From Xestospongia bergquistia (taxonomy: Eukaryota; Porifera; Demospongiae; Haplosclerida; Petrosiidae): 64,000 nucleotides of DNA. Made by a program: the position numbers and the translations under genes. The notes beneath the pieces are model-generated. The model saw nothing but the letters and a program-made list of their open reading frames with translations. It was not told the DNA's origin and did not search any database. Shown here one piece after another: positions 5,670 to 62,449 of this stretch (positions are counted from its first letter, which is position 1; every line of letters begins with the position of its first letter). The DNA lies in NCBI GenBank assembly GCA_963965975.1, contig OZ014416.1, positions 5,022,001-5,086,000 on the forward strand, read 5' to 3'.

Positions 5670-6240
5670 GACTAATTTATCTGAATTAAAATCCAGCTTG
5701 GTGTCAAACTGTCAATTCAGATCTAGCACTCACTTGACACTAAATCAATGAGTTATTTTAAAATTCATAGTAATAAATTAAATTTTTTCACTCTGAGTGC
5801 TAAAGACCACACAGCAGAAAGATACATTGGGTGGGATATACTATAGATTTTTAATAAGGTTGCTCTGTTTGGTCTACAATTTGTAAAATTAGTTACAGTC
5901 TTTTTCAACTTGACACTCGTTGCATTGTTTCTTATAAGTCATGTTAACATCAGTTTGTACATGTGTTCCATTAACAATAGTAACTATCAATAGTTACAAG
6001 TTACTAAATATAATTAAGTGTTGTTACTTTTCTAACAGCCTTATCACTACCTTCTATAATGATACAATGGAATAAATTTATTATATGTACATATTAAGCT
6101 CATTAATTACAAGATTGGTTACTACACTACTCCACAAATGTTCTATATGGTATTCTCATAATGAATACTACCACCATGATCTATGTACTCTTAGTATAAG
6201 GACTTTTATAGTTGCCATGACAACATATAGAATAGTTGTA
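5670..6240. repeat. Second copy of the 3,560-4,500 segment
   Basis: The segment starting near 5,680 (aattaaaatccagcttggtg) repeats the one near 3,580 (aattaaaatccagttttctc). The similarity continues through ctaaagaccacacag, the tttctaacarcc stretch and the gttctatatggta stretch. The two copies are about 2.1 kb apart and clearly diverged. The copy here has no transposon where the first copy carries the 4,002-4,430 insertion, so it serves as an empty-site control. Confidence 0.75.
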
Positions 6241-6720
6241 AAATGACTTACAAACAATTTCAAACCTTAAGTTATCAGGAATAACTGTTTAACGTTTCTG
6301 TTAATCTGGGTGGACCCACCACACCCACTTTTACTTGTATAATTTTAATAAAACGACTGTTATAAACAATTTTAAACCTTAAGTTACCAGCAATAACTCT
6401 TTTTTCAACATTAATTTTTCTAATATTCTGGGTAAAGAACCACACCCACATTTACAGTTGCCATGACACCACTTCTATGTATAGAATATTACTTTTGTGG
6501 ACAACTTCAAACCTTTTCTTATCAGGAACACCCACTTTTACAGTTGCCACAACAACATTCCTATGTATAGAATAGTCATAAAATGAGTATTACAGACAAT
6601 TTCAAACTTTAAGTTACCAGCAATAACTGTTTAACATTTTTGTTATTCTGGGTGGAGACACCACACCTACTTTTAGAATTGACATGACCACATTCTTGTG
6701 TATTCCTATGCATTCCTAGA

Positions 6721-22000: not shown

Positions 22001-25000
22001 ACAAGCTATAAAGACATTAAACACTTATTAGTTGATTCCATACATGGAAATAGATATAACCTTGATTTCAATAACAATTAGATATGGTAGTTGTATATTC
22101 TTTTACAACAGTAATGTGTCCCTGATAGCACACAGGGCAAAACCAACCTATATCCACTATTAGGATATGAATATCATCAGTCATATTATTATTAATATTA
22201 AATATTGGGCAGGTATAACATCTTGACTGTATTGCTTTGCTTCAGTCTTGACATTTTTAGACATTGAGCTATTATTTTAAAGAGTAAATACTTTAAACAG
22301 TCTAAGGATATAATTATAAATTAAGATTGTTTTAGATAATAAAAGTAGCAAGCCAAGTATTTTGAAACTTAGACTATAGGTAGTCAATACTTAATTTTCT
22401 TAGTTTCATTGTTAATGTATACAAGTACTGTATTATCAAAGATACATTAACATAACGTATGTACATGGAGTGAATACATCATTAGCTCATAAAGGGTTTT
22501 TAGAAACTTTTGTTTACTAGTATCTTAATGATTATCAAAGTTGTATATGAACATTTTATAAAACATTCTATAAACTGACCACACAGTGACTATAATATAT
22601 GTAAAAGTTATTCAAAAGATTTTACCACAAGAAGATGGAAATGTAGCAATAGTATACAGATACAACAAAGTCATGACTTTATCTCTGTACTCATATATTT
22701 TCAATTGCCACTAACTTCATAACAAGCATATGTAATTCTACATGTACCATCTATGAATAATTCCCTTTAATATTCTTTAAATAACACTACTAATGTGTGA
22801 CTATTTGTAATGTAAATTTTATAGAATCAGGAGACTGATTGCACAGTGGTTTAAAGCAAGGTCATCTTATGATGGCCGAGTTAGGTTTACACAATGATAT
22901 GATGCTGATCCTAATATTTATGCATTGTGTGTAGTTTGTATTTTATTTATTGTCTCTACTACATGTACATATATGTAGTACTACCTGTCTAGTAGGACTT
23001 GATAAAAGGCCAGTGTGTTAGGTACAGTTGAAATAGCTTTAAATAGTTAATGATGCTATGGAAACATAAATTATAACCTTCTGTAATATTGTGTTTATTT
23101 TTCTCTATATTTTGGAAATGTCAATAAACTTCTCTAAATTAATGATTTTAATCCCAATGACTTAATCAAGATTATATTTGATACCTGTAGTTTGATTACT
23201 ACTTCTTGTTTGACTTTACTGCTTACTATATATTGGATTCCAGTATGTTTATTGTCAGTTCATTTGTGATAAAGGGAACAATATATTAGCAATGTCTCTA
23301 TAGTCTAGTTGATGTGTTATTGACACTCACACAACAACTGTCCAATTTATAGTATATGTAACTTATATCATACATAATGTTTGCTTTAATTTAACACACT
23401 AATATTGTAATTTATAATAGTTTTTATTTTTTTAATAATGATTATATGTAGGTATATTGTATGAAGTCATAGTATATAATATTGTATTAATTTGTTATAT
23501 AATATATCTCATTTTATAGTGGGGACATACTCCAGTACATATTGCATATTGGAATAATTTATATAACATTCGTGAGCTCTTATGTTCTTTTAGAGGAGAT
23601 ATGGACCAAGTGAGAAATGTAAGTGATAAATATAATAATATATTTACTGTATATAATAACATGGACATAGTGACCTTACATGTTATGATATATTATAAAC
23701 ATGACCTAATTATATGTGGGTACATGTCACAGTTATAATATATTATTTATTTTAACAGGATGACTTACTTTTGGCTTCAGCTGAAAATGGTGATATACAT
23801 AATGTAAATGTAGCACTTACATCAGGTGCTAATGTCAATGTTCATCATGGTGATTTATCGAAGGTTAGTATACTTATTATATTATATGTATTGTTAGTAG
23901 TACTTGTGTTCTGTTAGTACATACTTTAAAGTACTACTATAAAAGGTGAGTTTACAAAACTACACTTGTGTATGTGTCATGTTGTGTTCTTAGTGTTGTG
24001 TTACACAGCTTCATTGCTGTTCATATAAACAGTGGAAACATGTAAACAAAAACTCCACCCTTGTCATTACTTTATAAACTCTATTACTGCAAAATGGTGA
24101 CTGAAGTGTTGTTGCTTGCTTTGCTTTACAGATGATAAAGAAGGCAATAGAAATGAATAACAATGTGGGTGTGTCCTATATTTACTCAACATATGCAACA
24201 AGGAGAGTTTCAAATTTGCTTTAAGAAATGTACCAGGCTGGCCATTTTCTTCCATGCATTTTCTTTTGCATCATTATAGCTTTTGCTAGATACTTGCTGT
24301 GAAGTTTGCAACTCAACAACAACAACAACTCTCTTTTAAACAAAATGTATATACTAATCAAAATCATGAATATTATAATTCAAGTACAAAGTGCAAAGTC
24401 CAAGGGATACTACATCTCCCCCCAGTTCTGGTGGACACAGTTCAACCAGACTCCATATTGGTCAGGTGGTTTTGACTGTCTCGAACTTCTCCTTAGTTGA
24501 GATGTATCACTGGAAGTAGTAAACTGAGTAATGGATGTCTCATCTCTACTCGAGTGCTCATCTTGACTTGGAAGTCTGTTTAAGTCACGTCTATTTTTTC
24601 TGACAACTCCTGTTGATATTTGAACTTGGTATTATCTTGGTCCTTGTTCATTATCCACCTCTCCAGAAATTCCTTGATCAAATATCCAGACTTCATCTCC
24701 AGGTTCTAAAATACATTGTTCATGCAGATGTCTTACACTCATACACTTCTTCTTTCTCCTCCCTTGCTGAATTTCCTTTTTCCATTTCTGTAGTGTTGGG
24801 TCTTTCTCTTGATGTTCCTTTATCTCAGTTAATCTTCTATCTGTTGCTGGCAGATTGCTCACTATAAGATTGATATATGCTTCTGCCTCTTCTTGTAATT
24901 CAGAAATTCCAGTGTTTGGTAATGGTGATCTTGATAGGAAATCAACAGTATTCAGTTATTTTCCAGGAATGTGTTTAATGTCATATTGGTATCTCATCAT

Positions 25001-28000
25001 CCGGAGATGAAATCTTTGTATTCTTATAGGTAACTTCCAAGTTTTTCGCTGACAGCAAAGAAACTAATGTTTGTGATCTGTTTCTAGTAAAAACGTGGAC
25101 CCCAGAAGGTATTGATTGAGTCTTTCACAGGCCCAAGTCAGTGCTAGTGCCTCTTTTTCTATTTGGGCATATCTTTGTTCACACTCAGTCATAGCTATTG
25201 ATACATATGCAATTAGTCTCGAACTTCCATTTGGTTGTTTCTGACATAACACAGCACCTAGTCCATATGCAGATGCATCAGCAGACATATTGTTTGTCTA
25301 TTTGGTTCAAATAATGCCAAACATTTCTCTGTACATAATGATTCTTTCAATTCTATGAATGCTTTCTCTTGGTTTGGACCCCAATACCACTGCTTCTTAT
25401 TTGAGAGTAGGTCTTGAATTGGCTTAGTTCATTCTGCTAAATGAGGAGAAAACTTGTTCAACTGGTTCAACATCCTTAGGAAACGTGTCGTTTCTGATAC
25501 GTTGGTGGGTCTTGGAACATTTTGAATTGCTCTTGTCTTTTCAGGATCAGGTGATACTCCCTTTTCATTTACGATATGTCCAAGAAAGGAAATCTCTGTA
25601 GCATAAAATTGGCACTTCTCTTTATTGAGTGTCACTCCTTCTCTCTTAAGTTTTCCTAAAACCGTGACAAATTGTCTGTGATGTTCTTCCTCAGTTTTCC
25701 CATATATCAACAGATCATCAATCAGTCCAACTACACCTCACATTCACTTAAAATTTCCAACATCTTTTGAAAAAATTCGGGTGCTGAGGAAATACTGAAT
25801 GGTAGACAATTAAATTTGTAATGTTCAAAGGGTGTTATAAATGTTGTGAGTTTAGATGAATCAGGTGACAGTTCAATCTTCCAAAATCCTGAATTTGCAT
25901 CCAATTTTGAGAAGAATTTTGCATCTCCAATTTGAGCTAAGACGTGGTCAACAGAGGGTAGGATGTGTCTCTCTCTCTTGATGTAACGGTTCAACTTTGT
26001 CAAGTCAACACAGATTCTCACTCAATTGTTCGGTTTTGGCACAACGACCATTCCTGAACACCAGTCAGTTGGTTCATTGATTTTAGAAATCACACCTTTC
26101 CTTTCCATCTTTTCTAATTCACATTTAACTTTTGGTAGCAGAGGGATTGGTACTCTCCTAGGTGCCATAATAGAGTATGGTTTCGCTTCTTCTTCTAACT
26201 CAATCTGGTAACTGCCTTTAATAAATCCTAGTCTGTTAAATAATTCTGGAAATTGTGCCACTATGTCTTCTTTACTTTTGTCTACAGAGTTGACTTCAGA
26301 GATCAAGTTCAGTTTCCAAATAATAGATATTTCAAACCTTCTACGATATATACAGTTTTTTTCACTTCATCATATCCTTTCTTACAGGTTCCCTCAAACC
26401 ATCCACTAACCTTCAACTCATTCTGTCCTGGTCCAACCAGAGGCGTCTTAGTAGAGTGGAGTGGTCCACCATAGTATAGGTCATATGTAATTGATGGGAT
26501 CATGGTAACATCAGCTCCCGTATCTATTTTGAATTTAATCATTCGTCGATTCAGTTTCAGTTTAGTCATCCACTGTTTGATTACGTTTCTTCCAGTAACA
26601 ACTCCCAAAAACTTCCAGTCACTATCAATATTAGAGTTCTCTGAGTCACTTCTTGTCCTAGTTTCAACATTATTAACAGTACTCCTACACAAACGATGAA
26701 AGTGTCCTATCTTATCACATTTAAAGCATTTGGATAGTCTACCTGGGCATGATTCTCTTCCAGTGTTATGGTTCTTTCCACATCTTGTACAAACTGTTTC
26801 TCTTTGATGTGACTGTTGGGCTGGTTTACTGCTGTTAACCAACCAATGGGCAAATCTATTTCTTGTAGAGATTCTCTTTGATCTGTTTTGATAAGTACTT
26901 GTACCGTCTCTGCTGGTATTTCTTCTTATTACCTCAACTTCTTTCTTGTTTCCTTCTCTTAGCTGTGGTTGTTGCTTCCTTACAGCTTCGCTCTCTCTAG
27001 CCATTCTGGCTGCCTTCTCCAGTGTCAGAGTCTTGTCGAGTTGCATTTTCTTGGACAGGGATTGGTTCCTTAACCCCACCACAATTTTGTCTCTAATCAA
27101 TTCATCATTCAATGTTCCATAATCATATTTCGATGCTAAGTTATACAATGCAGTTATGAATGCATCCACTGGTTCACTTTCTTCTTGTCGTCTCATGTTG
27201 AATTTGACTCTCTTGTAGATTACGTTTTTCTTCTTAATGAAGTAGTCGTCAAACTTTTTTTTCACCTTTTCATGACTTTGTAACTGCACTCTTCCTCTTC
27301 AGTCAAACGAAAAGACTGGTATATCATCTGCAGCGTCTCCCATGGAATATATCAAAGTGCTAATTCGGTTCTCTTCTGACTTTCTGTTAAGTTCGGATGA
27401 TTGTCGATGATGATAAGTTCATTGATGACGCAGACAGACAACTTATTGACCGAGCTTTATGTGAACAATCTACAACATGTACAAGCACAAGTGACATTTG
27501 GACTGACTCCAGACAAGAAAAATTAGACATTGCTTCCTTAACAGCTTTGACCCAATTTTCCTACAAAATGTTCTTCCTGACTGACTGTACTTATATTTAA
27601 CATTTGAAGAATATTATAGCTATCATATACTGTATAAATTAGCCTTCAAAACTAGCTACTTACGGTAAAATTTTTTCTTTTATGTCTGCGATAAAACTTC
27701 AATCCTAGTGCCATTTTCATCGCTGATGACACCCAATATACATGTGAACAATTCCAGTGGTCAGTGGCATCCTTATACTTCATTTATACACGATAGAGCT
27801 AACTTCAAAGTATACATTCTGAGGTGATTTTTGAAATTATTAGTAGATACGCAAGTTAAAAGGGATCAATACCGTGCTTGAAATTTTGAGAAATCTGACA
27901 TGTAATAAGGAAGTTACAGTGAAAAAACAAATTGCCAGGTGAACGCAAATGGACTTTAGTTACATTGACAATATAGTTTACTGTCTAATAGTTTATGTAC

Positions 28001-31000
28001 ATATGATGTTCATAAGATATTGTTTCGTCATCTGTACCTTGTAAGGTTGTGATTATTGTCTATTACATAAGCAGCTTGTTTGCTTGGAAGATCAGGTTTC
28101 TTTTGTTTAATCCTTACATTATTTTACTTATTTATTGATAACTGGTTACATTGACTGTATAGTTTATTGTCTAATAGTTGGGTTTTTTTTGTATTTAAAT
28201 AACCTTGTCTGTTATGTTCCTAGTATGTACGTACACCTGCACATCTTGCAGCAAGGAATGGACATAATGACACAGTAAAACTGTTAATTGAAATTGGACA
28301 AGCTGATATCAACACTAAGGATAATGTAAGTCACAGTAATTGTATTACATGACATATCATAGTACCAAGTTATGACCAATGAATTAATTCAATTTGTTTC
28401 ATTGGAGGTTAATAAATCAATAAGACACATGTTTTGATGTGTATTGCTGATTACTGAAACCTGCACTCTACAGCAACTGTTCTTTACCAGCTCAAGATTA
28501 TTTTAATATGTTTTTACAAAATATTTCAATAGTAATACTAATGTGTATTATTGATGAACTAGCAGTTAGCAAATGTGCAAAAATAGTTCTCTCATTATAT
28601 GACTTGTAACAAGACTATTCTATATTTATATATATATATATATAACACGAAAACTAACAAATAATGTTCAATGTTTCTCTCTGTTAGTCATGATACTATT
28701 AATCATAGTCATTTATCTAACAAATAGTATAATCTTATCTGATATCCATACTTTGCTTCCCTTGAGTTAGCTACCAAAACGTCTTAAAACACTTCATCAG
28801 ATACTATTTGTTGCAGTAGCTATAAACAAATTTCTCAGAAACAACTCAAATGTTTCTAGATGTTTAATTTATATGCATTCGTCAATCACTATGAAAATTT
28901 TGCAAAAATTTCTTAAACCAAATGTACTTATGAAATCATAAAATCCAAGGTATCAATGTCATCATAGAAGAAAGCAACAGCACATAATTTATTATAGTAA
29001 TAGCGCATATGTCATCATAGCAACAGTTGCTAAGCAAAAGAAAGTACATCACCATAAAATGAAGAACTATAGTAACAGCATATATGTCACCATAGCAACT
29101 GTTGCAGTAGCAAGAACATGTGTGTAATGATGGAAATTATTACCTTGATGTCTATTGCCAGGAGCGCATGAGCGTCGCTAAGTGATCCAAAGGAGCATCA
29201 AACTCCCTTAACTATCTGTTGTCGAATCAAGGCTTAGAACGTGTGTCCATATATGGACATAACTGCAAAGTCTTCTGTATTTTAATAGCTTCTGGGATGT
29301 AACCTCTTAGTTGGTGTGCTTTAAATAGATAAATTTAAGAGAAGTCAAGAAGATGGTCAAGCGACCTTCTGAAGACACGGAAGTCCCTGCTACATGAAAA
29401 CAACAGCTGAGTGTCAATGGACCCACGAATGGCTGAACAAATTGGTCATTTCAGGCTTACTGTTGGCAAACCTGGTACTTACTCAGGCTCATGTATTATG
29501 ACTTTAAGAAGTTATGTGCTGATTTCACTTCTCCTCACCCTGGGTACACAATATATCCAGGACATCTCAATGGTTGTGCAGTTGAGACTTTCTTTAGCTA
29601 GGTCAAGCATGCCACCTCAGGCCAATTATGATCACTGAACTATGCTATTACCGAAAGAAGTAGTAACTTTTCATTCTTTTAATAATGTTATAATATCAGA
29701 TAATATTAACCTTAATAGGAAAAGGAGGTTTGATAACACAGGTGAATAAAGAGATATGTTGTTCAACTCTTTCCGCCTCTTTAATGACAAAAGCCTCCAT
29801 AACTTCCATGTCTAATTCTTTTAAACATATCTTGATTTACATAACTTCTTTCATTTTTAGTTTTTTCATTTTACTCATCATTGATTATTATAATAATATT
29901 CATTGCTCCATCACGTACTTAACAGTACTTATGCTATTAAGTGTATTTTCATTATATGGAATAATCCCTGACCATGTTTCGACAATGGTTTGAATACAAA
30001 TGTCATGGCAGTTTGACGCTCCTTTGCGACGCTCATGCGCTCGTGCTATTGCCATTTAATGACTATAGTATAACAACAATTACCAAGGTCTATAGTTACC
30101 ATAGTAACATAGCTATAGCAATTAAGTATATGTCCATCACAATATCATTAATTTTCATAGTAACAGTTGTCATAAAATCGTTGCTATAGCAGAAACATAT
30201 AGATATTTTAGTATATTAATGTTACTTATAACACTATGACAATTGAGCTAATTGTTGTTTTGTAGGATTATGATTTAATATGTTTACAAACCTTGTCAAA
30301 GTCTATAAAATATCTAATTAATGACCATTATATAATTCTATACATAATTAACAACTTTTGCCCAAAAATTTTTCTCTAACAAAAAGTATAAAAAGTAGTC
30401 ACTGTGACCATTTTATACATATTTTTACACAAAACAATTTAATGCCATAGCTATTCCAAATTTGTTAAAAACAATGTCAAAATATGCTATACCTTCATTT
30501 CATATGTATTCATAAATCTGTATGAAAGATTTATAAATTTCAAAAGCATTTGTACCAATGCAATCACAAAATAGAAGGAGTCCTATAATCAGCAACAGCG
30601 TATAATTCACTATAGCAACAGTATGTAATGTCACCATAGCGCAATCACTATTGCAACAGCATTAATGTCACCATAACAACTGTTACTATAGCAAATAATA
30701 GTCATAACGGTTGTTATTAATGTTTATCAAATCTTTAATTTAACTTGCTATAAAAACAACCTAATGGCAAGCCCATTCTCATTATAGTGAGTAAATAAAA
30801 TACTTTTGGTCAACCATAGTGAATGGATCATAAAGTCACAGTTTACTTGCAATAAGAATTTTAGCACTATGTTCCCATTGTTCTTATTAGCAATGAAATG
30901 TATATACTACAATATTTATTTTTCACATTACTCTATACTCTATCAATAATTAATTCAGTAATAATATTGGTTCTCTATTATGTATTAATAGAATAGTAAA

Positions 31001-34000
31001 CTTAATATTGCTGATAGCAATAATGAAATAAACTCTGTACCTTTGTTACATACTTTGTAGTTGCATTGTTGGCTACTGAGATGAAAAATCTCCATAGATG
31101 TATCTGATATCTTTAATTATACAATTATTACATCATCAGTTCTTTAGATACATACTTGATTGAAAAAAAATGATTGTGTATGTTACATGTTGAAAGTATA
31201 ATAAGACAATTGACTAGTCCTTAAAAATTGCCACTTCCATCATTTATTCCTTGATATATCTGATCTTCAATTTGGGTTCTTCACTTCTAAATCATCATCA
31301 TTTGCTATTCCTTCACTTTCAGTATCCTCTTTAATTGTAAGTAATCTTGTTGTGTAGCATTGACTACAAGGATAGCAATAGACACTTTGTGAATTGAAAT
31401 ATCTTTGTAAAAGAGATTGTTATGTCTCAACCAATGTAATTTTTCCAGAACATAATGTCTTTAAATAGGGGAATCATGATTAGCATTATTTTGCCATAAC
31501 ATTGAATCTCATGACATTATTGTGAAGTTAATTAGGAACTTCACCTTTCAGATTCTTAGTGCCTTTCATAATCTCCTTGCACTGATTGATTCACATATCA
31601 TTAATTTCATTTCTACTTTTCTATGAACACAGTTGTTATGGACAATTAGGGTTAAAAGGAAAAGGACCACATATTCACTAGGTATTCCCCAAGATAATTA
31701 TTCCTTTTAAGTCAAAACATTTTCAATTTTACTGACAATGTCAGAACTTGCTTCCTTGAAGGAATCCTTTTGTGTAGCTCTATATTGGTAATATTGGTAA
31801 TTTTAAACAGTTCTAATTTTTCATGTACTGTGACACTATTAAATCAGCTACATCATGAAGAGCATTTTTATGATCAGAATTTCTAGCTTCAAAAAACACC
31901 TGCATTGAGTTCACCTGTTTGCTAGTCTTGTAAAGTTGTATGGTGTCTGTAGAACAAATGTATACTTATTAATACAGTCTGTATTTGTTCTTAGAGATGG
32001 CACTGAAGACTGGACATTGAATATTAATAATTGATGAACCCAAGATAGTGATGTCCCTGTTAAAGTTCACAATATTAGAGCTATTCATGTATTAAAGTAA
32101 AGATTTTCAGCACTATGTTGTCAATGTTCTTATTAGCAATGAGATGCATGTATAACATTATTTATTTTTCACATTACTATATTATAGTAATACAAATACA
32201 ACATATTTTAGAACACACTGTTGACTGTGAACCCACAAGCATTGTGAACTGTTGTATAATATAAATATATCACTATTGATTGAGAGTGTACTCATACAAC
32301 AAAGTACATGTAATATAATGTTCCAAAGATATTCTTATACCATCTGTACCTTGTAAAGTTGTCATTAATGTTTACAGCTTTTTCGATTGGAAAAACAGGA
32401 TTAGTTTCTTTAAAACTACATAACAGTGACTTCATTTAAGTAGTGTACATTTGTATAATGTATTATGATTGATGATGTGAACCATTTGCTGACATAATAA
32501 TGATGTAATGATGCTCCATTAGTACACTGGTCATACATTTCACTTCTTACTAGCGTTTGTGATATAAAAAAGCATAAATTATCTTTTATTTGTATCCTTA
32601 TATTTACTTATTTATTGATAACTGGTTACATTGACTGTATAGTTGATTGTCTAGTAGTTGTACTTTTGTAATTAAATAACCTTGTCTATTATGTTCCTAG
32701 TATGGACGTACACCTGCACATCTTGCAGCAAGGAATGGACATACTGAAACAGTAATACTGTTAATTGAAATTGGAAATGCTGATATCAACGCTAAGGATA
32801 ATGTAAGTCACAGTAATTGTATTATAAGACATATCCCAGATTTTCTTGTATATATGGTGCCCTCTCACCATGGATTCATAGAAATATTTAGCCACACTTT
32901 GTGAAAATCACACTTGTGTTCACAACACGTGTCTGATACCACACCCATTAATTAGTACTTCACACCCAATAAACACGAAAGTTAATACCCACGAAATTTA
33001 AATAATGAAGCAAAATTTTAAAAACACAAAAATTTATACACTAGAAAATTGTACTCTTACTGTAGTTTATTGTCTAATAGTTGTTCTTTTGTAATTAAAT
33101 AACCTTGTCTGTTATGTTCCTAGTATAGACGTACACCTGCACATCTTGCAGCAATGAAGGGACATACTGACACAGTAAAACTGTTAATTGAAATTGGACA
33201 AGATGATACCAATTTTAAAGATAATGTAAGTCACAGTAATTGTATTACAAGACATATCATTGTACCAAATTATGACCAATGAATTAATTAAAATTACTTC
33301 ATTTGAGGTTAATAAATCAATAAGACACATGTTTTGATGTGTATTACTGATTACTGAAACCTGCACTCTACAGCAACTGTTCTTTACCAGCTCATGATTA
33401 TTTTAATATGTTTTTACCAAACATTTCAATAATAATAATACTAATGTGTATTATTAATAATTTTAATTAGCAAATGTGCTAAAATTGTACCATTATGCCT
33501 TATGTTAACAACAAAAACTTTTTGTAATTATTTTAGCAGAAACTGTTTATTGACATAACTATTCCAAATTTCTTAGAAACAATGCCAAAAGTTTCTAGAT
33601 GTTTAACTGTATGTATTTATCAATCACCATGAAAATTTTCCAAAAGTTTCTTAAACCAATTGTACCCATTAAATAATAAAATCCAATGTATCATGTCATC
33701 ATAGAAGAAAGCAACAGCACATTATTTATTATAGCAACAGCACATATGTCATCATAGCAACAGTTACTAAGCGAAAGAAAGTATGTCACCATAAAATGAA
33801 TTACTCAGTAACAGCAAATATGTTGCCATAGCAACTGTTGCTATAGCAATAACACATGAGTATAAACAACTATAGCATAACAAGAATAAACAATGTCATA
33901 GTTACCATAGCAATTAGGTATGCATCTATCATGATAGCAATGATCTCCATGGTAACAGTAGTCATAAGATCATTGCCATAGCAACAACATATAGATATAT

Positions 34001-37000
34001 TATTGTATTAATGTTACATATAACACTATGACAATTGAGCAAATTGTTGTTTTAAGATGAAAATTATAGCACTGTGCTTTCATATGTTTACAAACTTTAT
34101 CAAAACTTATAAAATATTTAATTATTGACCATTATTTAATATCTATTCATAGTTGGCAAGTTTTGCCAAAAAATGATTTACTAACAAAAAGTATAACATA
34201 TAGTTACTGTGACCTTTTTATATATATTTTGGCACAAAACAATTTATTACCATAATTATTCAAATTTTGTTGAAAACAATGCTAAAACATACTATATCTT
34301 TAATTCATATATATTCATCAAACTCTATGAAAGATTTATAAATTTCAAAAGCAATTGTACCAATGAAATCACAATATATAAGGAGTCATACAATAAGCAA
34401 CAGCATATAATTCACTATATCAATGGTATGTAATGTCACCATAGCAACAGTCACTATAGCAACAGCATTTATTTCACCATAGCAACTGTACTATAGTGTG
34501 ACAGTGTTTGTTATTAATGACTATCAAATCCCACAATCTACTTAAAAATAATGCCATTTTGATCATTGACCACACCCAGTATACATGTGAACAATTCCAG
34601 TGGTCAGTGGTATCCTTATACTTCATTTATAGACAATAGAGCTAACTTAAAGTATACATTCTCAGGTGATTTTTGAAATTATCAGTAGATACGCAAGTTA
34701 AAAGGGATCAATACCGTACTTGAAATTTTGAAATCTGATGTGTAATAAGGAAGTTACAGCGAAAAAACAAAGTGCAAGGTGAACGCGAATGGACTTTAGT
34801 TACATTGACTATATAGTTTACTGTCTAATAGTTTATGTACATAAGATGTTCATAAGATATTGTTTCGTCATCTGTACATTGTAAGGTTGTGATTATTGTC
34901 TATTACATAAGCAGCTTGTTTGCTTGGAAGATTAGATTTCTTTTGTTTAATCCTTATATTATTTTACTTATTTATTGATAACTGGTTACATTGGCTGTAT
35001 AGTTTATTGCCTAATAGTTGTTCTTTTGTAATTAAATAACCTAGTCTATTATGTTCCTAGTATGGACGTACACCTGCACATCTTGCAGCAATGAATGGAC
35101 ATACTGACACAGTAAAACTGTTAATTGAAATTGGACAAGATGATACCAATTTTAAAGATAATGTAAGTCAAAGTAATTGTATTACAAGACATATCATTGT
35201 ACCAAGTTATGACCAATGAATTAATTCAATTTATTTCATTTGAGGTTAATAAATCAATAAGACACATGTTTTGATGTGTATTGCTGATTACTGAAACCTG
35301 CACTCTACAGCAACTGTTCTTTACCAGCTCATGATTATTTTAATATGTTTTTACCAAACATTTCAATAATAATAATACTAATGTGTATTATTGATGAACT
35401 AGCAGTTAGCAAATGTGCAAAAATAGTTCTCTCATTATATGACTTGCAACAAGACTATTCTATATTTATATATATATATATAACACGAAAACTAACAAAT
35501 AATGTTCAATGTTTCTCTCTGTTAGTCATGATACTATTAATCATAGTCATTTATCTAACAAATAGTATAATCTTATCTGATATCCATACTTTGCTTCCCT
35601 TGAGTTAGCTACCAAAACGTCTTAAAACACTTCATCAGATACTATTTGTTGCAGTAGCTATAAACAAATTTCTCAGAAACAACTCAAATGTTTCTAGATG
35701 TTTAATTTATATGCATTCGTCAATCACTATGAAAATTTTGCAAAAATTTCTTAAACCAAATGTACTTATGAAATCATAAAATCCAAGGTATCAATGTCAT
35801 CATAGAAGAAAGCAACAGCACATAATTTATTATAGTAATAGCGCATATGTCATCATAGCAACAGTTGCTAAGCAAAAGAAAGTACATCACCATAAAATGA
35901 AGAACTATAGTAACAGCATATATGTCACCATAGCAACTGTTGCAGTAGCAAGAACATGTGTGTAATGATGGAAATTATTACCTTGATGTCTATTGCCAGG
36001 AGCGCATGAGCGTCGCTAAGTGATCCAAAGGAGCATCAAACTCCCTTAACTATCTGTTGTCGAATCAAGGCTTAGAACGTGTGTCCATATATGGACATAA
36101 CTGCAAAGTCTTCTGTATTTTAATAGCTTCTGGGCTGTAACCTCTTAGTTGGTGTGCTTTAAATAGATAAATTTAAGAGAAGTCAAGAAGATGGTCAAGC
36201 GACCTTCTGAAGACACGGAAGTCCCTGCAACATGAAAACAACAGCTGAGTGTCAATGGACCCACGAATGGCTGAACAAATTGGTCATTTCAGGCTTACTG
36301 TTGGCAAACCTGGTACTTACTCAGGCTCATGTATTATGACTTTAAGAAGTTATGTGCTGATTTCACTTCTCCTCACCCTGGGTACACAATATATCCAGGA
36401 CATCTCAATGGTTGTGCAGTTGAGACTTTCTTTAGCTAGGTCAAGCATGCCACCTCAGGCCAATTATGATCACTGAACTATGCTATTACCGAAAGAAGTA
36501 GTAACTTTTCATTCTTTTAATAATGTTATAATATCAGATAATATTAACCTTAATAGGAAAAGGAGGTTTGATAACACAGGTGAATAAAGAGATATGTTGT
36601 TCAACTCTTTCCGCCTCTTTAATGACAAAAGCCTCCATAACTTCCATGTCTAATTCTTTTAAACATATCTTGATTTACATAACTTCTTTCATTTTTAGTT
36701 TTTTCATTTTACTCATCATTGATTATTATAATAATATTCATTGCTCCATCACGTACTTAACAGTACTTATGCTATTAAGTGTATTTTCATTATATGGAAT
36801 AATCCCTGACCATGTTTCGACAATGGTTTGAATACAAATGTCATGGCAGTTTGACGCTCCTTTGCGACGCTCATGCGCTCGTGCTATTGCCATTTAATGA
36901 CTATAGTATAACAACAATTACCAAGGTCTATAGTTACCATAGTAACATAGCTATAGCAATTAAGTATATGTCCATCACAATATCATTAATTTTCATAGTA

Positions 37001-40000
37001 ACAGTTGTCATAAAATCGTTGCTATAGCAGAAACATATAGATATTTTAGTATATTAATGTTACTTATAACACTATGACAATTGAGTTAATTGTTGTTTTG
37101 TAGGATTATGATTTAATATGTTTACAAACCTTGTCAAAGTCTATAAAATATCTAATTAATGACCATTATATAATTCTATACATAATTAACAACTTTTGCC
37201 CAAAAATTTTTCTCTAACAAAAAGTATAAAAAGTAGTCACTGTGACCATTTTATACATATTTTTACACAAAACAATTTAATGCCATAGCTATTCCAAATT
37301 TGTTAAAAACAATGTCAAAATATGCTATACCTTCATTTCATATGTATTCATAAATCTGTATGAAAGATTTATAAATTTCAAAAGCATTTGTACCAATGCA
37401 ATCACAAAATAGAAGGAGTCCTATAATCAGCAACAGCGTATAATTCACTATAGCAACAGTATGTAATGTCACCATAGCGCAATCACTATTGCAACAGCAT
37501 TAATGTCACCATAACAACTGTTACTATAGCAAATAATAGTCATAACGGTTGTTATTAATGTTTATCAAATCTTTAATTTAACTTGCTATAAAAACAACCT
37601 AATGGCAAGCCCATTCTCATTATAGTGAGTAAATAAAATACTTTTGGTCAACCATAGTGAATGGATCATAAAGTCACAGTTTACTTGCAATAAGAATTTT
37701 AGCACTATGTTCCCATTGTTCTTATTAGCAATGAAATGTATATACTACAATATTTATTTTTCACATTACTCTATACTCTATCAATAATTAATTCAGTAAT
37801 AATATTGGTTCTCTATTATGTATTAATAGAATAGTAAACTTAATATTGCTGATAGCAATAATGAAATAAACTCTGTACCTTTGTTACATACTTTGTAGTT
37901 GCATTGTTGGCTACTGAGATGAAAAATCTCCATAGATGTATCTGATATCTTTAATTATACAATTATTACATCATCAGTTTTTTAGATACATACTTGATTG
38001 AAAAAAATGATTGTCTATGTTACTAGTTACCATAGCAATTAGGTATGCATCTATCATGATAGCAATGATCTCCATGGTAACAGTAGTCATAAGATCATTG
38101 CCATAGCAACAACATATAGATATATTATTGTATTAATGTTACATATAACACTATGACAATTGAGCAAATTGTTGTTTTAAGATGAAAATTATAGCACTAT
38201 GCTTTCATATGTTTACAAACTTTATCAAAACTTATAAAATATTTAATTATTGACCATTATTTAATATCTATTCATAGTTGGCAAGTTTTGCCAAAAAATG
38301 ATTTACTAACAAAAAGTATAACATATAGTTACTGTGACCTTTTTATATATATTTTGGCACAAAACAATTTATTACCATAATTATTCAAATTTTGTTGAAA
38401 ACAATGCTAAAACATACTATATCTTTAATTCATATATATTCATCAAACTCTATGAAAGATTTATAAATTTCAAAAGCAATTGTACCAATGAAATCACAAT
38501 ATATAAGGAGTCATACAATAAGCAACAGCATATAATTCACTATATCAATGGTATGTAATGTCACCATAGCAACAGTCACTATAGCAACAGCATTTATTTC
38601 ACCATAGCAACTGTACTATAGTGTGACAGTGTTTGTTATTAATGACTATCAAATCCCACAATCTACTTAAAAATAATGCCATTTTGATCATTGACCACAC
38701 CCAGTATACATGTGAACAATTCCAGTGGTCAGTGGTATCCTTATACTTCATTTATAGACAATAGAGCTAACTTAAAGTATACATTCTCAGGTGATTTTTG
38801 AAATTATCAGTAGATACGCAAGTTAAAAGGGATCAATACCGTACTTGAAATTTTGAAATCTGATGTGTAATAAGGAAGTTACAGCGAAAAAACAAAGTGC
38901 AAGGTGAACGCGAATGGACTTTAGTTACATTGACTATATAGTTTACTGTCTAATAGTTTATGTACATAAGATGTTCATAAGATATTGTTTCGTCATCTGT
39001 ACATTGTAAGGTTGTGATTATTGTCTATTACATAAGCAGCTTGTTTGCTTGGAAGATTAGATTTCTTTTGTTTAATCCTTATATTATTTTACTTATTTAT
39101 TGATAACTGGTTACATTGGCTGTATAGTTTATTGCCTAATAGTTGTTCTTTTGTAATTAAATAACCTAGTCTATTATGTTCCTAGTATGGACGTACACCT
39201 GCACATCTTGCAGCAATGAATGGACATACTGACACAGTAAAACTGTTAATTGAAATTGGACAAGATGATACCAATTTTAAAGATAATGTAAGTCAAAGTA
39301 ATTGTATTACAAGACATATCATTGTACCAAGTTATGACCAATGAATTAATTCAATTTATTTCATTTGAGGTTAATAAATCAATAAGACACATGTTTTGAT
39401 GTGTATTGCTGATTACTGAAACCTGCACTCTACAGCAACTGTTCTTTACCAGCTCATGATTATTTTAATATGTTTTTACCAAACATTTCAATAATAATAA
39501 TACTAATGTGTATTATTGATGAACTAGCAGTTAGCAAATGTGCAAAAATAGTTCTCTCATTATATGACTTGCAACAAGACTATTCTATATTTATATATAT
39601 ATATATAACACGAAAACTAACAAATAATGTTCAATGTTTCTCTCTGTTAGTCATGATACTATTAATCATAGTCATTTATCTAACAAATAGTATAATCTTA
39701 TCTGATATCCATACTTTGCTTCCCTTGAGTTAGCTACCAAAACGTCTTAAAACACTTCATCAGATACTATTTGTTGCAGTAGCTATAAACAAATTTCTCA
39801 GAAACAACTCAAATGTTTCTAGATGTTTAATTTATATGCATTCGTCAATCACTATGAAAATTTTGCAAAAATTTCTTAAACCAAATGTACTTATGAAATC
39901 ATAAAATCCAAGGTATCAATGTCATCATAGAAGAAAGCAACAGCACATAATTTATTATAGTAATAGCGCATATGTCATCATAGCAACAGTTGCTAAACAA

Positions 40001-43000
40001 AAGAAAGTACATCACCATAAAATGAAGAACTATAGTAACAGCATATATGTCACCATAGCAACTGTTGCAGTAGCAAGAACATGTGTGTAATGATGGAAAT
40101 TATTACCTTGATGTCTATTGCCAGGAGCGCATGAGCGTCACTAAGTGATCCAAAGGAGCATCAAACTCCCTTAACTATCTGTTGTCGAATCAAGGCTTAG
40201 AATGTGTGTCCATATATGGACATAACTGCAAAGTCTTCTGTATTTTAATAGCTTCTGGGCTGTAACCTCTTAGTTGGTGTGCTTTAAATAGATAAATTTA
40301 AGAGAAGTCAAGAAGATGGTCAAGCGACCTTCTGAAGACACGGAAGTCCCTGCTACATGAAAACAACAGCTGAGTGTCAATGGACCCACGAATGGCTGAA
40401 CAAATTGGTCATTTCAGGCTTACTGTTGGCAAACCTGGTACTTACTCAGGCTCATGTATTATGACTTTAAGAAGTTATGTGCTGATTTCACTTCTCCTCA
40501 CCCTGGGTACACAATATATCCAGGACATCTCAATGGTTGTGCAGTTGAGACTTTCTTTAGCTAGGTCAAGCATGCCACCTCAGGCCAATTATGATCACTG
40601 AACTATGCTATTACCGAAAGAAGTAGTAACTTTTCATTCTTTTAATAATGTTATAATATCAGATAATATTAACCTTAATAGGAAAAGGAGGTTTGATAAC
40701 ACAGGTGAATAAAGAGATATGTTGTTCAACTCTTTCCGCCTCTTTAATGACAAAAGCCTCCATAACTTCCATGTCTAATTCTTTTAAACATATCTTGATT
40801 TACATAACTTCTTTCATTTTTAGTTTTTTCATTTTACTCATCATTGATTATTATAATAATATTCATTGCTCCATCACGTACTTAACAGTACTTATGCTAT
40901 TAAGTGTATTTTCATTATATGGAATAATCCCTGACCATGTTTCGACAATGGTTTGAATACAAATGTCATGGCAGTTTGACGCTCCTTTGCGACGCTCATG
41001 CGCTCGTGCTATTGCCATTTAATGACTATAGTATAACAACAATTACCAAGGTCTATAGTTACCATAGTAACATAGCTATAGCAATTAAGTATATGTCCAT
41101 CACAATATCATTAATTTTCATAGTAACAGTTGTCATAAAATCGTTGCTATAGCAAAAACATATAGATATTTTAGTATATTAATGTTACTTATAACACTAT
41201 GACAATTGAGTTAATTGTTGTTTTGTAGGATTATGATTTAATATGTTTACAAACCTTGTCAAAGTCTATAAAATATCTAATTAATGACCATTATATAATT
41301 CTATACATAATTAACAACTTTTGCCCAAAAATTTTTCTCTAACAAAAAGTATAAAAAGTAGTCACTGTGACCATTTTATACATATTTTTACACAAAACAA
41401 TTTAATGCCATAGCTATTCCAAATTTGTTAAAAACAATGTCAAAATATGCTATACCTTCATTTCATATGTATTCATAAATCTGTATGAAAGATTTATAAA
41501 TTTCAAAAGCATTTGTACCAATGCAATCACAAAATAGAAGGAGTCCTATAATCAGCAACAGCGTATAATTCACTATAGCAACAGTATGTAATGTCACCAT
41601 AGCGCAATCACTATTGCAACAGCATTAATGTCACCATAACAACTGTTACTATAGCAAATAATAGTCATAACGGTTGTTATTAATGTTTATCAAATCTTTA
41701 ATTTAACTTGCTATAAAAACAACCTAATGGCAAGCCCATTCTCATTATAGTGAGTAAATAAAATACTTTTGGTCAACCATAGTGAATGGATCATAAAGTC
41801 ACAGTTTACTTGCAATAAGAATTTTAGCACTATGTTCCCATTGTTCTTATTAGCAATGAAATGTATATACTACAATATTTATTTTTCACATTACTCTATA
41901 CTCTATCAATAATTAATTCAGTAATAATATTGGTTCTCTATTATGTATTAATAGAATAGTAAACTTAATATTGCTGATAGCAATAATGAAATAAACTCTG
42001 TACCTTTGTTACATACTTTGTAGTTGCATTGTTGGCTACTGAGATGAAAAATCTCCATAGATGTATCTGATATCTTTAATTATACAATTATTACATCATC
42101 AGTTTTTTAGATACATACTTGATTGAAAAAAATGATTGTCTATGTTACATGTTCAAAGTATAATAAGAAAATTGACTAGTCCTTAAAAATTTCCACTTCC
42201 ATCATTTATTCCTTGATATAACTGATCTTCAATTTGGTTCTTAACTTCTAAATTATCATCATTTGCTATTCTTTAACTTTCAGTATCCTCGTTAATTGTA
42301 AGTAATCTTGTTGTGTGTCATTGACTACAAGGATAGTAATAGACACTTAGTGAATTAAAATATCTTTGTAAAACAGATTGTTATGTTTCAACCAATATAA
42401 TTTTTCCAGAACATAATGTCTTTAAATATGGGAGTCATGATTAGCATTATTTTGCCATAACATTGAATCTCATGACATTATTGTAAAGTTAATTGGGAAC
42501 TTCACCTTTCAGATTCTTCAGATCCTTTCATAATCTCCTTGCACTGATTGATTCACATATCATTAATTTCATTTTCTACTTTTCTATGAACACAGTTGTT
42601 ATGGACAATTAGGGTTAAAAGGAAAAAGAAAATAGGACCACATATTCACTAGGTATTCCCCAACATAATTATTCCTTTTAAGTCAAAACATTTTCAATTT
42701 TACTGACAATGTCAGAACTTGCTTCCTTGAAGTAATCCTTTTGTACAGCTCTTTATTGGTAATATTGGTAATTTTTTCAGTCTTCCTATATTTCATTTCA
42801 GTGAGGTCCTTGATAAAGGTGTCTTACAGTATCAACACAGGGACAATGGTTTTATGTGGTAATGTAGTCATCTGTAACCGAAGATATGTTTTCTTTGAGT
42901 TTACTAGTAGCCACTAAACCATGTACTAGACATGACCTACATCACTTTCTCTGTCAGTTCTAAGGAGTCAGTTAACTTTCTTTCTCCAATATCAAAATTA

Positions 43001-46000
43001 TATAAACAGTTCTACTTTTTCATGTACTGTGACATTATTAAATCAGCTGCATGATTAAAAGCATTTTTATGATCAGAATTTCTGGCTTCAAAAACACCTC
43101 CATTCAGTTCACCTGTTTGCTAGTCTTGTAAAGGTGTATGATGTCTGTAGAACAAATGTATACTTATTAATATTAATCTGTATTTGTTGTTAGAGATGAC
43201 TAGGCATTGAATATTAATAATTGATAAACCCAAGATAGTGGTGTCCCTGTTAAAGTTCACAATATTAGAGCCATTCTTGTATTAAATATAATTTAGTCTA
43301 CTGTAGAAGCTGCTGCTACAAAGAAGAGGATTGAAACATAATTGGAATGCTTTTCCGAAATGCCAATATACACTTTTGCTAGAGAGTAAAGAAAGACTTT
43401 TTGTCAACCATAGTGAATACAAAAATACAATAGTATTAAACATGCACTATTGCTATATGCAAGTAAAGAATTAAAGTCACAGTTTACTTGCAATAAGGAT
43501 TTTTAGCACTATGTTCTCATTGTTCTTATTAGCAATGAAATGTATGTATTATTATATTGTTTTTTGAAATTACTATATATAGTAACGTAAATAACACATA
43601 TTGTAGTACATACAATTGACTGTGAACCCATAAGCATTGTAACAGTATGTAATGTCACTGTAGCAACAATCACTATAGCAACAGCGTTTATTTCACCATA
43701 GCAACTGTACTATAGTGTCACAGTGTATGTTATTAATGTTATCAAATCCCACAATCTACTTAAAAATAACACAGTGGCAAGTCTATTCTAGCTATAGAGA
43801 GTAAACAAAGACTTTTTTGTCCAACATATTGAATACCAAAATACAAAAGAAATAGACATGCACTCTTGATACAAGCAAGTAACATATTAAAGTAAAGATT
43901 TTCAGCACTATGTTGTCAATGTTCTTATTAGCAATGAGATGTATGTATAACAATATTTATTTTTCACATTACTATATTATAGTAATACAAATACAACATA
44001 TTGTAGTACACACAGTTGACTGTGAACCCACAAGCATTGTGAACTGTTGTGTAATATAAATATATCACTGTTGATTGAGAGTATACTCATACAACAAAGT
44101 ACATGTACATATAATGTTCCAAAGATATTCTTATACCATCTGTACCTTGTAAGGTTGTCATTATTTTATACAGCTTTTTTGATTGGAAAAACAGGATTAG
44201 TTTCTTTAAAACTACATAACAGTTACTTCATTTAAGTAGTGTACATTTGTATAATGTATTATGATTGATGATGTGAACCATTTGCTGACATAATAATGAT
44301 GTAATGATGCTCCAATAGTACACTGGTCATACATTTCACTTCTTACTAGCGTCTGTGATATAAAAAAGCATAAATTATCTTTTATTTGTATCCTTATATT
44401 TACTTATTTATTGATAACTGGTTACATAGACTGTATAGTTGATTGTCTAGTAGTTGTACTTTTGTAATTAAATAACCTTGTCTATTATGTTCCTAGTATG
44501 GACGTACACCTGCACATCTTGCAGCAAGGAATGGACATAATGAAACAGTAAAACTGTTAATTGAAATTGGAAATGCTGATATCAACACTAAGGATAATGT
44601 AAGTCACAGTAATTGTATTATAAGACATATCCCAGATTTTCTTGTATATATTGTACACTCTCACCATGGATTCATAGGAATAGTTAGCCACACTTTAAGC
44701 AAGTAACATATTAGTAAAGATTTTCAGCACTATGTTGTCAATGTTCTTATTAACAATGAGATGTATGTATAACATTATTTAATTTTCACATTACTATATT
44801 ATAGTAATACAAATACAACATATTGTACACTCAGTTGACTGTGAACCCACAAGCATTGTGAACTGTTGTATAATATAAATATATCACTGTTGATTGAGAG
44901 TATACTCATACAACAAAGTACATGTACATATAATGTTCCAAAGATATTCTTATATCATTTGTAACTGTTGATCCAATAACTTGCATGCTGTAAAAATAAC
45001 ACAAAGATGAGAATGTTTCACTATAGGGAGTGGAAAAATACTTCTTGTCAACCATATTGATTATAAAATACAATACAAATACGTATACACTGTGTGGTAC
45101 AAGCAAGTGACATAAAATCATAGTTTACTTGCAATAACAAGTGTCAGTGCTATTACTTAGACATTTAAAAGGTGTTTAGTTGTCATAGTTACATTGGCTC
45201 CTATGATGATTTTGAAAGATTGATTCAGACCATTAATGAGACAGTTACATACCACTGATGTCTATCTCCACTAGTCACAGCTATTTCAGATTTTACTGTT
45301 CCTAGAAAAGTGTTCTTTTCAACTTCTCTGACTCTTTTGCGTCAATGACACATAACCTCATAATGTCCCCATCTATAGCACTTTTACAAATACTTTCCTG
45401 AGCTGGACATATCAATCTGTTCTGGCTAGAGGTAACTTTCTACACCTTGTACATCTATACTATTAGAGTCTACTGATCCTTTCCTCTTGACTTTACTATG
45501 AAAATGAGTTCATGTCCCTCTTGATCTTTTTCTTGACTGGGCAATACAGCTTTATGAAAAGTTTTTGAATCTTTTCCACGAACGATGGTCTGTCATTTTT
45601 AACAGGTTTACTTTGTCTAATATCAATAATAGCTGTCTATAACTTGAGTTCAGCATCTAACTGTTTTGCTCTGACAGTTTACAAATCAAAATTTAGACTA
45701 AAATCTGATCTCAAATCATCTCTTCTCTGAGATCACCATATGTACGGTTTAGCATACATCTGTAACATATTAACATCACAGTTTAGTTTCCAATAAAAAT
45801 TCTCAGCGCTATATCTCTCATTGTTCGTATTAGCAAGTAAATGTTAAGGATTCAGTAATGTCTCAATACTTGTATGTACTAAAATATTTTTTCACAGTAC
45901 TATGTATAGTAATATATATAAAACATTGTTATATATATAGTTGACTGTTAACCCACAAGCAATGTGAACTGTTGTATAATATAAATATATCATTGTTGAC

Positions 46001-49000
46001 TGTGAGCGTATTCATACAAACAAGGTACATGTACATATGATGTTCATAAGATATTGTTTTGTCATCTGTACCTTGTAAGGTTGTGATTATTGTATATTAC
46101 ATAAGCAGCTTGTTTGCTTGGAAGATAGGTTTCTTTTCTTGAAACTTTATTTAAGTAGTGTACATTTATATAATATAATATAATTATTAATGTCAACCAT
46201 TTGTTGAAGTACCAAGTCATGGTTTGTTCATTATTGCTGATATTTACAATAACATTGATAGTGTTTGTTTTGTTTATAAGATGATTATGATGAATAATAA
46301 CAAAATATTACAATTAAAGTATGTTCACTTAGCTCACTATTACAAACATAGCATTGTGAAACAAAAATCATGACATTAATCATATAATGATGCTTAAATT
46401 TGGTAACTGGCTGTACATTTCACCTCTTTGTGTATCATCAAGTTAATATATTACATAATTGTATGTGTACTCATCAGTAGTAGACTGAGTAGCAGATATA
46501 CCATTTCTTGAGTACTGTAATCATGTTTGTCAATTCAACATAACATTGTACCTTGTAATGTCTTACAAGTATTATTGTTGTTGCCGTTGTGATCAATACA
46601 GGAGTTAAAAATTGGTGATAATAAGTTCTGAAAGATGGTTAACCATTTGCTGCATATTTTGCCATATATCTACCATAAGTATTTATATCAATAATTAATT
46701 CAATATTAATATTGGTTCTCTATTATGAATTAATAGTAATAATAATCTTAATATTACTGATAGCAATAATGAAATAAACTCTATACCTTTGTTGCATACT
46801 TTGTAGTTCTTCGTTGGCTACTGAGATGAAAAATCTACAAAGATGTATCTGATATTTTTAATTATACAATTATTACATCATCAGTGCTTTAGATACATAT
46901 TTAATTGAAAAAATGGTTGTCTATGTTACATTTCAAAGTATAATAAGAAAATTGAGTAATCCCTAAAAATTGCCACTGCCATCATTTATTCCTTGAATAT
47001 ATCTGATCAAATCTTTAATTTGGCTTCTTTACTTCTAAATCATCATCATTTGCTATTCTTTCAATTTCAGCATCCTCTTTAATTAAAAGTAATCTTGTTA
47101 TGTAGCATTGACTACAAGGATAGCAATAGACACTTATTGAATTGAAATATCTTTGTAAAACAGATTGTTGTGTTTCAAACAATATAATTTTTTCAGAACA
47201 TAATGTCTTTAAATATGGGAGTCATTATTAGCATTATTTTGCCATAACATTGAATCTTGACATTATTGTAAAGTTAACTAGGAACTGTACCTTTCAGATT
47301 CTTAATGCTTTTCATAATCTCCTTGCCCTGTGGTTTTAGTCTCTATAATCTAAAGAGTAAAGTTATCTAACATTTTATAGGATCATTATATTTACTCTCT
47401 TGGGCTCTGTTGTCATCTTTGATACTCTTTTTGCCTTGTTTATTTCAGTTTCTGCACTTGTTGATCAAATATTCATTAGACTAATCTCTTTCTCTTTGTA
47501 TCTTTTTCTATAACCAGCTAAATGTCATAAGTAGCTATGGGTTGGCTTAGCAAAATCAATAACAGAACTCAACCTTGTATCCTTTATATTTAACCTTTTT
47601 TCTGACATGTTGCAGTCTGCTTGATCTTTCGACATGATGTTGTCTGCTTGATGTCAAAGGTATTATTAGTTCCCCTTCTTTTATCTTGTTATTTTTCTGT
47701 CAAATTCTAACATTGAGCTATAAAAGTGATGGACCAATATAAATGTCAATCCAATAGACACAGTACAGGGGAGGCTGTTGATTTGTACTTTAGGCATATC
47801 AAAGTTATCATCCTGGAGACTACTTTAGATATGAAAACCTATACAAACTTCCTATTAGACACATTTTCCGGCTTTAGATAATGTCTGCTATAAATGTCAA
47901 TACATTCACTACAAGTAGTGTTGTCCCAAGACTAAGAATGATTTATTTTAGGCAATGGAATATACTTAGAGCTGATTGATTCACATATTATTAATTTCAT
48001 TTTCTACTTTGCTATGAACACAGTTGTTATGGACAATTAAGGTTAAAAGGAAAAAAAAATAGAACCACATATTCACTAGGTATTCCCCAAGATAATTATT
48101 CCTTTTAAGTCAAAACATTTTCAATTTTACTGACAATGTCAGAACTTGCTTCCTTGAAGTCATCCTTTTGTGCAGCTGTACCAGGAATATAGGTTATTTT
48201 TTCACTCTTCCTACATTTCATTTCAGTGACGTCCTTGATAAAACTGTGCTACAGTATCACCACAAGGACATCGATTATATGTGGTAATGTATACATCTGT
48301 AGCCGAAGATAGGTTTCTTTGAGCTTGCTACTAGCCACTTAACCATGTACTAGACATGACCTAGATCACTTTCTCTGTCAGTTCTAAGGAGTCAATTAAC
48401 TTTCTTTCTCCAATATCAAAATTATACAAACAGCTCTAATTTTTCATATACTGTGACATTATTAAATCAGCTACATGATGAAGGGCATTTTTATGATTAG
48501 AATTTCTGGCTTCAGAAACACCTGCATTGACTTCACCTGTTTGCTAGTCTTGTAAAGTTGTATGATGTCTGTAGAACAAACGTATGCTTATTAATATAGT
48601 CTGTATTTGTTGTTAGAGATGGCACTGAAGACTAGGCATTGAATATTAATAATTAATGAACCCAACATAATGGCGTCCCTGTTAAAGTTCACAATATTAG
48701 AGCTATTCATATATTAAATATAACTTAGTCTATTGTAGAAGCTGCTGCTACAAAGAAGAGGATTGAAACATAATTGAAATTCTTTTCTGAAATGCCAAGA
48801 TACACTTTTGCTTGAGAGTAAAGAAAGACTTTTTGTCAACCATAGTAAATACAGAAAATACAGTAGTATTAAACATGCGCTATTGCTATAGGCAAGTAAA
48901 GTATTAAAGTCACAGTTTACTGTTGATTTGTTTATAAGATGATTATAATGAATAATAACAAACTATTACAAATAAAGTATGTTCTCTTTGTACACTATTA

Positions 49001-62276: not shown

Positions 62277-62449
62277 ACAATTAAAGGTCTATTTTGGTAA
62301 TATTATGCAACAATTTTACTCTCTTTGTGATATCAGCGATTGCTTTAATTTTATAGACTCTTTCATTTTATGATTGCTACTATTTTCTGAAGTAAATTGC
62401 TAAATTTATAGCGCTATTTATTCCTAATATTCAGCGTAAAGTCACTATA

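Follow-up and report, generated by a model that had tools for sequence, protein, structure and literature searches.

Ankyrin exon cassettes in a predicted Roc GTPase gene family of the sponge Xestospongia bergquistia

Proteins of the DAPK1 type carry their domains in the order ankyrin, Roc, COR and Death. The passages of PMC4986451 drawn on here describe fungal NLRs with highly conserved ankyrin, TPR or WD repeats in Podospora anserina, in which polymorphism of repeat number between isolates has been shown, and report that the ankyrin NLRs are under diversifying selection at concave, β-hairpin and inner-helix positions. For brown algae, the passages taken from PMC11378527 describe leucine-rich repeat (LRR) ROCO genes built from 72-bp phase-2 exons that encode one LRR each, with documented splice variants. 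Here, we analyzed a 64,000-bp stretch of the sponge Xestospongia bergquistia (the window; positions 5022001-5086000 of contig OZ014416.1, hereafter C6, in the 146-Mb, 21-contig assembly GCA_963965975.1), which holds a predicted gene with an array of six 102-bp ankyrin exons (A to F) followed by a Roc GTPase frame. We found that every array repeat occupies a single phase-0 exon, which is copied together with its intron edges both in tandem and between positions, that related genes hold about one to seven such cassettes, and that residues on the binding side, compared over the whole family, evolve far faster than silent sites or introns do, with the scaffold preserved. The reading that we favor, at a probability of roughly 0.6, is that the gene belongs to an expanded ankyrin-Roc(COR)-Death-like family with a frame-safe cassette arm, which would bind variable partners, with Roc as the switch.

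The predicted order of ankyrin, Roc, (COR) and Death-like domains in the window gene is like that of DAPK1-type proteins, from which the gene differs in the expansion of the array, an extra C-terminal domain and membership of a large gene family. Like the fungal NLRs, as these are described in the passages used, it has what appear to be near-identical ankyrin repeats in an NTPase family with changing repeat number, and its family appears to be selected in the same regions, namely the inner helices and β-hairpins; unlike the fungal proteins with their NACHT/NB-ARC switch, it has a predicted Roc switch, and its repeats are encoded by separate exons whose introns were copied too (PMC4986451). With the brown-algal ROCO genes, on the same footing, it shares in-phase exons of equal length that encode one repeat each, varying arrays and selected ligand-side sites, but the repeat is ankyrin instead of LRR and the exon is 102 bp in phase 0 instead of 72 bp in phase 2; a Death-like domain is predicted here, and the parts of the brown-algal study drawn on mention none for LRR-ROCO (PMC11378527). 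By analogy, the family would function like these repeat-diversifying systems while being a member of neither, because it has no NACHT/NB-ARC domain and no LRR exon. Among the open-licence papers listed in searches aimed at such a family or mechanism, no title or abstract opening described an animal ankyrin-exon ROCO family, and the passages searched in two papers on sponge immune repertoires (PMC8242945, PMC12909245) contained nothing on ROCO genes. A preliminary description of the window had called the system undescribed, which can apply to this ankyrin exon-cassette ROCO family at most; the principle is already known from fungal NLRs and brown-algal ROCO genes, as the parts of PMC4986451 and PMC11378527 used here show.

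That description had also proposed six phase-0 exons of 102 bp, each encoding one full ankyrin repeat, in copied introns. An exon scan, in which AG...GT candidates of 96, 99, 102 or 105 bp on both strands were scored against an ankyrin consensus, recovered all six in place with AG/GT borders, an open phase-0 frame and one ankyrin repeat each. The scan also gave six upstream ankyrin exons (19017-23863; one of 102 bp) and a shifted reading of array exon C at 33160-33261, and no ankyrin exon was found among the candidates on the minus strand of the window. The copying of the introns is real, as about 196 bp around exons A to E (61 upstream, 102 exon and 33 downstream) were 91-97% identical to the exon F copy. 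The term near-identical slightly overstates the likeness of the proteins, which were 73-91% identical to the last copy (F), although exons D and E are identical; the repeat criterion of the fungal type is more than 85% identity over at least 100 aa. The six exons form the end of a longer repeat domain with nine more phase-0 ankyrin or ankyrin-like exons upstream (16601-23863), six of which lie in an older duplication (18997-19327 and 21699-22032 at 90%; 19335-20816 and 22838-24297 at 88%). The gene model, ankyrin-Roc-Death-like, is predicted from splice signals and paralogs.

To describe the binding side, we used the seven positions randomized in designed ankyrin repeat proteins (DARPins), which we take to be 34, 1, 3, 11, 12, 32 and 24 when placed via the TPLHLAA motif. 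The exon comparison set comprised nine stretches, the window and eight paralog stretches, whose plus-strand exons were found with five seed cassettes; selection was measured over all pairs of the 31 exons of 102 bp, with two 105-bp exons dropped. At the seven positions, the ratio of non-silent to silent change (dN/dS) was 2.8 (bootstrap over the nine stretches, 1.95-3.87), and only 85 of 200000 random position sets had as many non-silent differences. A five-position core gave 3.9 (bootstrap 2.6-5.6; 8 of 200000 random sets as high), although this subset was picked after the exon alignment was seen, which makes the result for seven positions the fairer of the two. The other exon positions had a dN/dS of 0.73. 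Codon differences, counted in three classes defined by intron edge, were 555 non-silent to 6 silent in the core and 620 to 218 elsewhere, and the core excess was present in each class. Core dN and dS were 0.662 and 0.168 between stretches (414 pairs) and 0.365 and 0.105 for pairs within stretches pooled (51 pairs); in single arrays with at least four exons, they were 0.467 and 0.168 (4.79 Mb), 0.457 and 0.058 (4.86 Mb) and 0.584 and 0.154 (6.38 Mb). Change at positions 7-33 of the downstream intron was 0.031 compared with 0.160 at exon silent sites, which is about five times slower. The exon border falls within the variable hairpin, position 34 lying in one exon and positions 1-3 in the next, and each rearrangement may thus also create new hairpin combinations. 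The variable residues occupy mostly the same places in the repeat as in DARPins; unlike in the designed proteins, the pattern here is a natural one and the repeat has one residue more, as judged from the passages used of PMC8683736 and PMC8229355.

The window gene is predicted to be one of a large ankyrin-Roc(COR)-Death-like family located chiefly on C6. The array exon with its intron edges gave at least 41 genomic matches, those listed all lying on C6 (best 40 of 239 candidates scored), and the Roc-exon and C-terminal-frame parts gave at least 40 matches each (best 40 of 135 and best 40 of 84 candidates, respectively), mostly on C6 with some on C3, C5, C7 and C13; a Pfam Roc profile run over the genome returned 452 candidates, of which 150 were scored. 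All 33 plus-strand exons of the array type matched by the seed cassettes in the nine stretches were open, spliceable (AG, GT) and frame-preserving (31 of 102 bp and two of 105 bp), by which pseudogene decay was rejected. Five genes were covered from the upstream ankyrin exons to Roc and contained 5, 6 (window), 7, 2 and 2 array exons, the Roc position of the fifth (2 exons) being taken from the Roc DNA search, while four partial stretches contained at least 4, 2, 3 and 2. The opening 33 nt of the intron that follows the array exons, for example GTAAGTCACAGTAATTGTATTACAAGACATATC at 28326-28358, had 64 genome matches with up to three mismatches, all in C6:4.38-6.77 Mb and 39 of them exact; the reversed control had 0, so that the real count is far above chance. 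Assignment of the 57 forward matches and two indel exons to the next listed Roc within 60 kb gave 14 genes with 1-7 cassettes each, one assigned cassette lying 38 kb from its neighbors; 13 of these cassettes were left with no assigned Roc among the best 40 Roc matches, and one of seven reverse matches was assigned.

Comparison of individual genes revealed how cassette number has changed between relatives. The closest gene by Roc DNA, at 6.18 Mb, was 96% identical, the next being 78% identical (best 40 of 135 candidates); it was collinear at about 95% with window positions 44697-52579, yet it contained two array exons compared with six. The genes at 4.79 and 6.39 Mb had three exons in common in the same order, with pair differences of 0.5%, 0.5% and 3.6%, and the 6.39-Mb gene had three copies of the first exon type instead of one and an extra exon at the end; the 4.79-Mb stretch was cut upstream, where the 33-nt intron search gave no further cassette for 37 kb. 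For 13 of the 33 cassettes, the nearest cassette lay in the same stretch (on average 3.9 in shuffles, with 3 of 5000 reaching this number), which indicated that tandem copying and sharing between genes both occur.

Window positions 55616-59520, comprising the Death-like and C-terminal frames with their introns, were 93% identical to C6:6404107-6407996, whereas the Roc protein of that 6.40-Mb gene was only 63-64% identical to the window Roc, a difference that may reflect exchange or conversion among genes of the family. The window gene thus looks like a mosaic, with a tail like the 6.18-Mb gene and positions 55616-59520 like the 6.40-Mb gene. Cassettes near 4.80, 5.80, 6.17 and 6.39 Mb recurred every 2.55-2.57 kb approximately, and those at 5.95 Mb every 5.24 kb; these near-constant steps point to standard duplication units in several C6 genes. 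On other contigs, matches to Roc and the C-terminal frame formed four sets in C13:3.41-4.05 Mb, spaced by about 0.2 Mb and with equal or nearly equal scores, which suggests recent segmental duplication on a very large scale or a repeat in the assembly; C14 (about 0.6-5.6 Mb) and C3 contained clusters of very long open ankyrin frames of up to 2968 aa.

Self-comparison of the window revealed that the copied blocks of the array are nested and that three copying events are visible (Table 1). The youngest is a head-to-tail duplication of 4125 bp with six mismatches, of which five are transitions and none lies inside an exon, and no gap. The outer ends of the unit had no common sequence on comparison, which is not like ordinary homologous unequal exchange, and homology-driven unequal crossing-over was not supported for this unit. 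In the older copy, 27706-31186 was 98.1% identical to 34549-38023. The inserted cassette with exon F resembled the surroundings of exon B (32090-32900 versus 43885-44696, 96.8%), and it was absent in all seven paralog stretches that hold both flanks, which overlap there without the insert; the eighth stretch tested (6.60 Mb) had weak, scattered matches only, and the 4.86-4.88 Mb stretch held the flanking region of exon F twice. Because the cassettes are phase-0 exons copied with their intron edges, the array changes without breaking the frame. The units are therefore frame-neutral, as had been proposed, and their gain or loss has happened, recently within this gene and repeatedly between related genes. 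In the intron preceding the array, broken retroelement-like frames were recognized by eye on the minus strand (24632-27298); they were common to three paralog stretches at 92-93%, and the one frame scanned had no Pfam match.

Downstream of the array, Pfam matched Roc in the long open frame with 28.0 bits (cut-off 27), and Roc was matched at E up to 1 in six of six aligned family members. The window Roc also matched the LRRK2 Roc in the PDB weakly (E 9.4e-4 as a single sequence and 0.0064 as a profile), and the Pfam description of Roc names DAPkinase. No NACHT or NB-ARC family was found among the Pfam matches of this GTPase frame. The single-sequence model of the C-terminal frame was poor and mostly helical, with a mean predicted local distance difference test (pLDDT) score of 47.8; a first guess that this frame is a CARD was unsupported by Pfam, the PDB profile or the model.

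The 33-nt intron start contains a small GTAAT-TGT-ATTAC hairpin. Additionally, one cassette class had low duplex energies between the two intron edges (z about -3 to -4, compared with a mean of -1.8 for all 33 copies), and in this class 13 of 13 cassettes could pair. An RNA helix between the edges had no covariation support, however; partner shuffles reached the observed total in 1039 of 2000 cases, and the helix is therefore no evidence for regulated splicing.

Table 1. Predicted exons, frames and copied units of the window (positions within the window).
Feature	Positions	Strand	Description
Upstream ankyrin-like exon	16601-16711	+	111 bp, phase 0, AG/GT, open frame DRKLWESAIEGNEDKVKQLIQNGANF...
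Upstream ankyrin-like exon	16898-16999	+	102 bp, phase 0
Upstream ankyrin-like exon	17789-17887	+	99 bp, phase 0
Upstream ankyrin exon, type e4	19017-19115	+	99 bp, phase 0; present in paralog stretches too
Upstream ankyrin exon, type e5	20049-20150	+	102 bp, phase 0
Upstream ankyrin exon, type e6	20291-20389	+	99 bp, phase 0
Second copy of e4	21719-21817	+	older duplication
Second copy of e5	23520-23618	+	older duplication
Second copy of e6	23759-23863	+	105 bp; older duplication
Array exon A	28224-28325	+	102 bp, phase 0, one ankyrin repeat
Array exon B	32701-32802	+	102 bp, phase 0, one ankyrin repeat
Array exon C	33124-33225	+	102 bp, phase 0, one ankyrin repeat
Array exon D	35061-35162	+	102 bp, phase 0, one ankyrin repeat
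Array exon E	39186-39287	+	102 bp, phase 0; identical to exon D
Array exon F	44497-44598	+	102 bp, phase 0, one ankyrin repeat
Older unit with exon A	27706-31804	+	97-98% like 34549-38023 and 38674-42775
First copy of youngest tandem unit (exon D)	33899-38023	+	4125 bp
Second copy of youngest tandem unit (exon E)	38024-42148	+	4125 bp
Inserted cassette with exon F	43873-44696	+	about 824 bp, direct repeat on both sides
Long open frame: ankyrin-like end, Roc GTPase domain, possible COR	53018-55135	+	phase 0 after AG
Death-like domain frame	55787-56140	+	Pfam Death E 7.2e-4, 20.1 bits, below cut-off 22.6
C-terminal frame	57009-57392	+	kept in paralogs

Related tandem arrays, roughly 64-77% alike, lie at both ends of the window (2840-6700 and 62414-64000), the latter with a step near 137 bp as judged from self-match offsets.

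Several results weigh against the favored reading. In the six copies of the window itself, dN was not raised at the binding positions (0.078 in the core and 0.091 in the rest, dS 0.054), nor was it raised in the core of the two-exon gene at 6.16 Mb (0 in the core, 0 in the rest, dS 0.047), and the exon pair at 5.90 Mb had a core dN of 0.276, close to its dS of 0.266. The pairwise counts are non-independent, as the genes exchange sequence, and the bootstrap had only nine groups. Among the downstream modules, COR-B reached 15 bits (cut-off 27) in one of six members only, and Death was below the Pfam cut-off in the window and weaker in two paralogs (E 0.031 and 0.083). When the Death-like frame was used as a profile against the PDB, no Death domain was found, and the C-terminal frame had no family in Pfam or in the PDB profile search. 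The core residues in the window were Y, R, R/M, N/K and N throughout, and the array would thus multiply one surface; since the binding positions are nearly the same in its six repeats, its effect would be less on specificity than on length and avidity. The earlier proposal that copy number alters the binding surface fits the family, where the varying surface is the expected binding surface, better than the window's own six repeats.

The same lack of surface-specific selection in the window is what would be expected if cassettes had been duplicated neutrally and in tandem, carried by their introns, in a scaffold or signaling protein, with a copy number that has no recognition role, and the youngest junction, with no common sequence, looks like an ordinary rearrangement. 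We consider this explanation unlikely, as all 33 copies are intact and the strong binding-side excess is seen both family-wide and within three other multi-exon arrays. The near-identity of the youngest copies, 99.86% alike and exactly head to tail, may also raise the suspicion that haplotype duplication or a misjoin lies behind the 4125-bp unit or a larger part of the array; such an assembly artefact is highly improbable, given that the remaining array blocks have distinct breakpoints and identities of about 82-98% and that related genes have arrays of their own.

Diversification could instead act at the level of the individual, with a copy number that segregates, exons that are alternatively included, or both, so that the arm differs per individual or cell. 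The youngest duplication differs at only 0.15%, and the 33-nt intron start, exact in 39 of 64 matches and slow-changing, behaves as a splicing element might; the data come from a single assembly, however, and the helix at the intron edges lacked covariation support, and we regard this possibility as doubtful. A more speculative form of it, to which we give less credence, is a heritable and individually variable ankyrin "ruler", in which a pool of about 64 cassettes in a 2.4-Mb cluster would be copied between genes, segregate and be selectively included via the 33-nt intron element.

The favored reading, that of an expanded ankyrin-Roc(COR)-Death-like family with a frame-safe cassette arm, suggests the following mechanism. 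The ankyrin arm may lie inside the cell and bind variable partners, such as microbial or self molecules, while the Roc GTPase would serve as the switch and the Death-like and C-terminal modules would relay a death or inflammatory signal; changes in array length and surface would alter avidity and specificity over evolutionary time. The label of receptor is a putative one that draws on Roc, the Death-like domain and the selection, and the protein looks like a sensor whose binding arm was lengthened and re-surfaced during evolution. If this is true, the family would be an animal ankyrin-based counterpart to the repeat-swapping receptors of fungi and brown algae, set in a ROCO rather than an NLR frame. 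The gene set bears on the possible role of selection on repeat-array length in innate recognition by invertebrates, and on how generally receptors may change fast, with the frame kept safe, by means of exon cassettes that introns carry.

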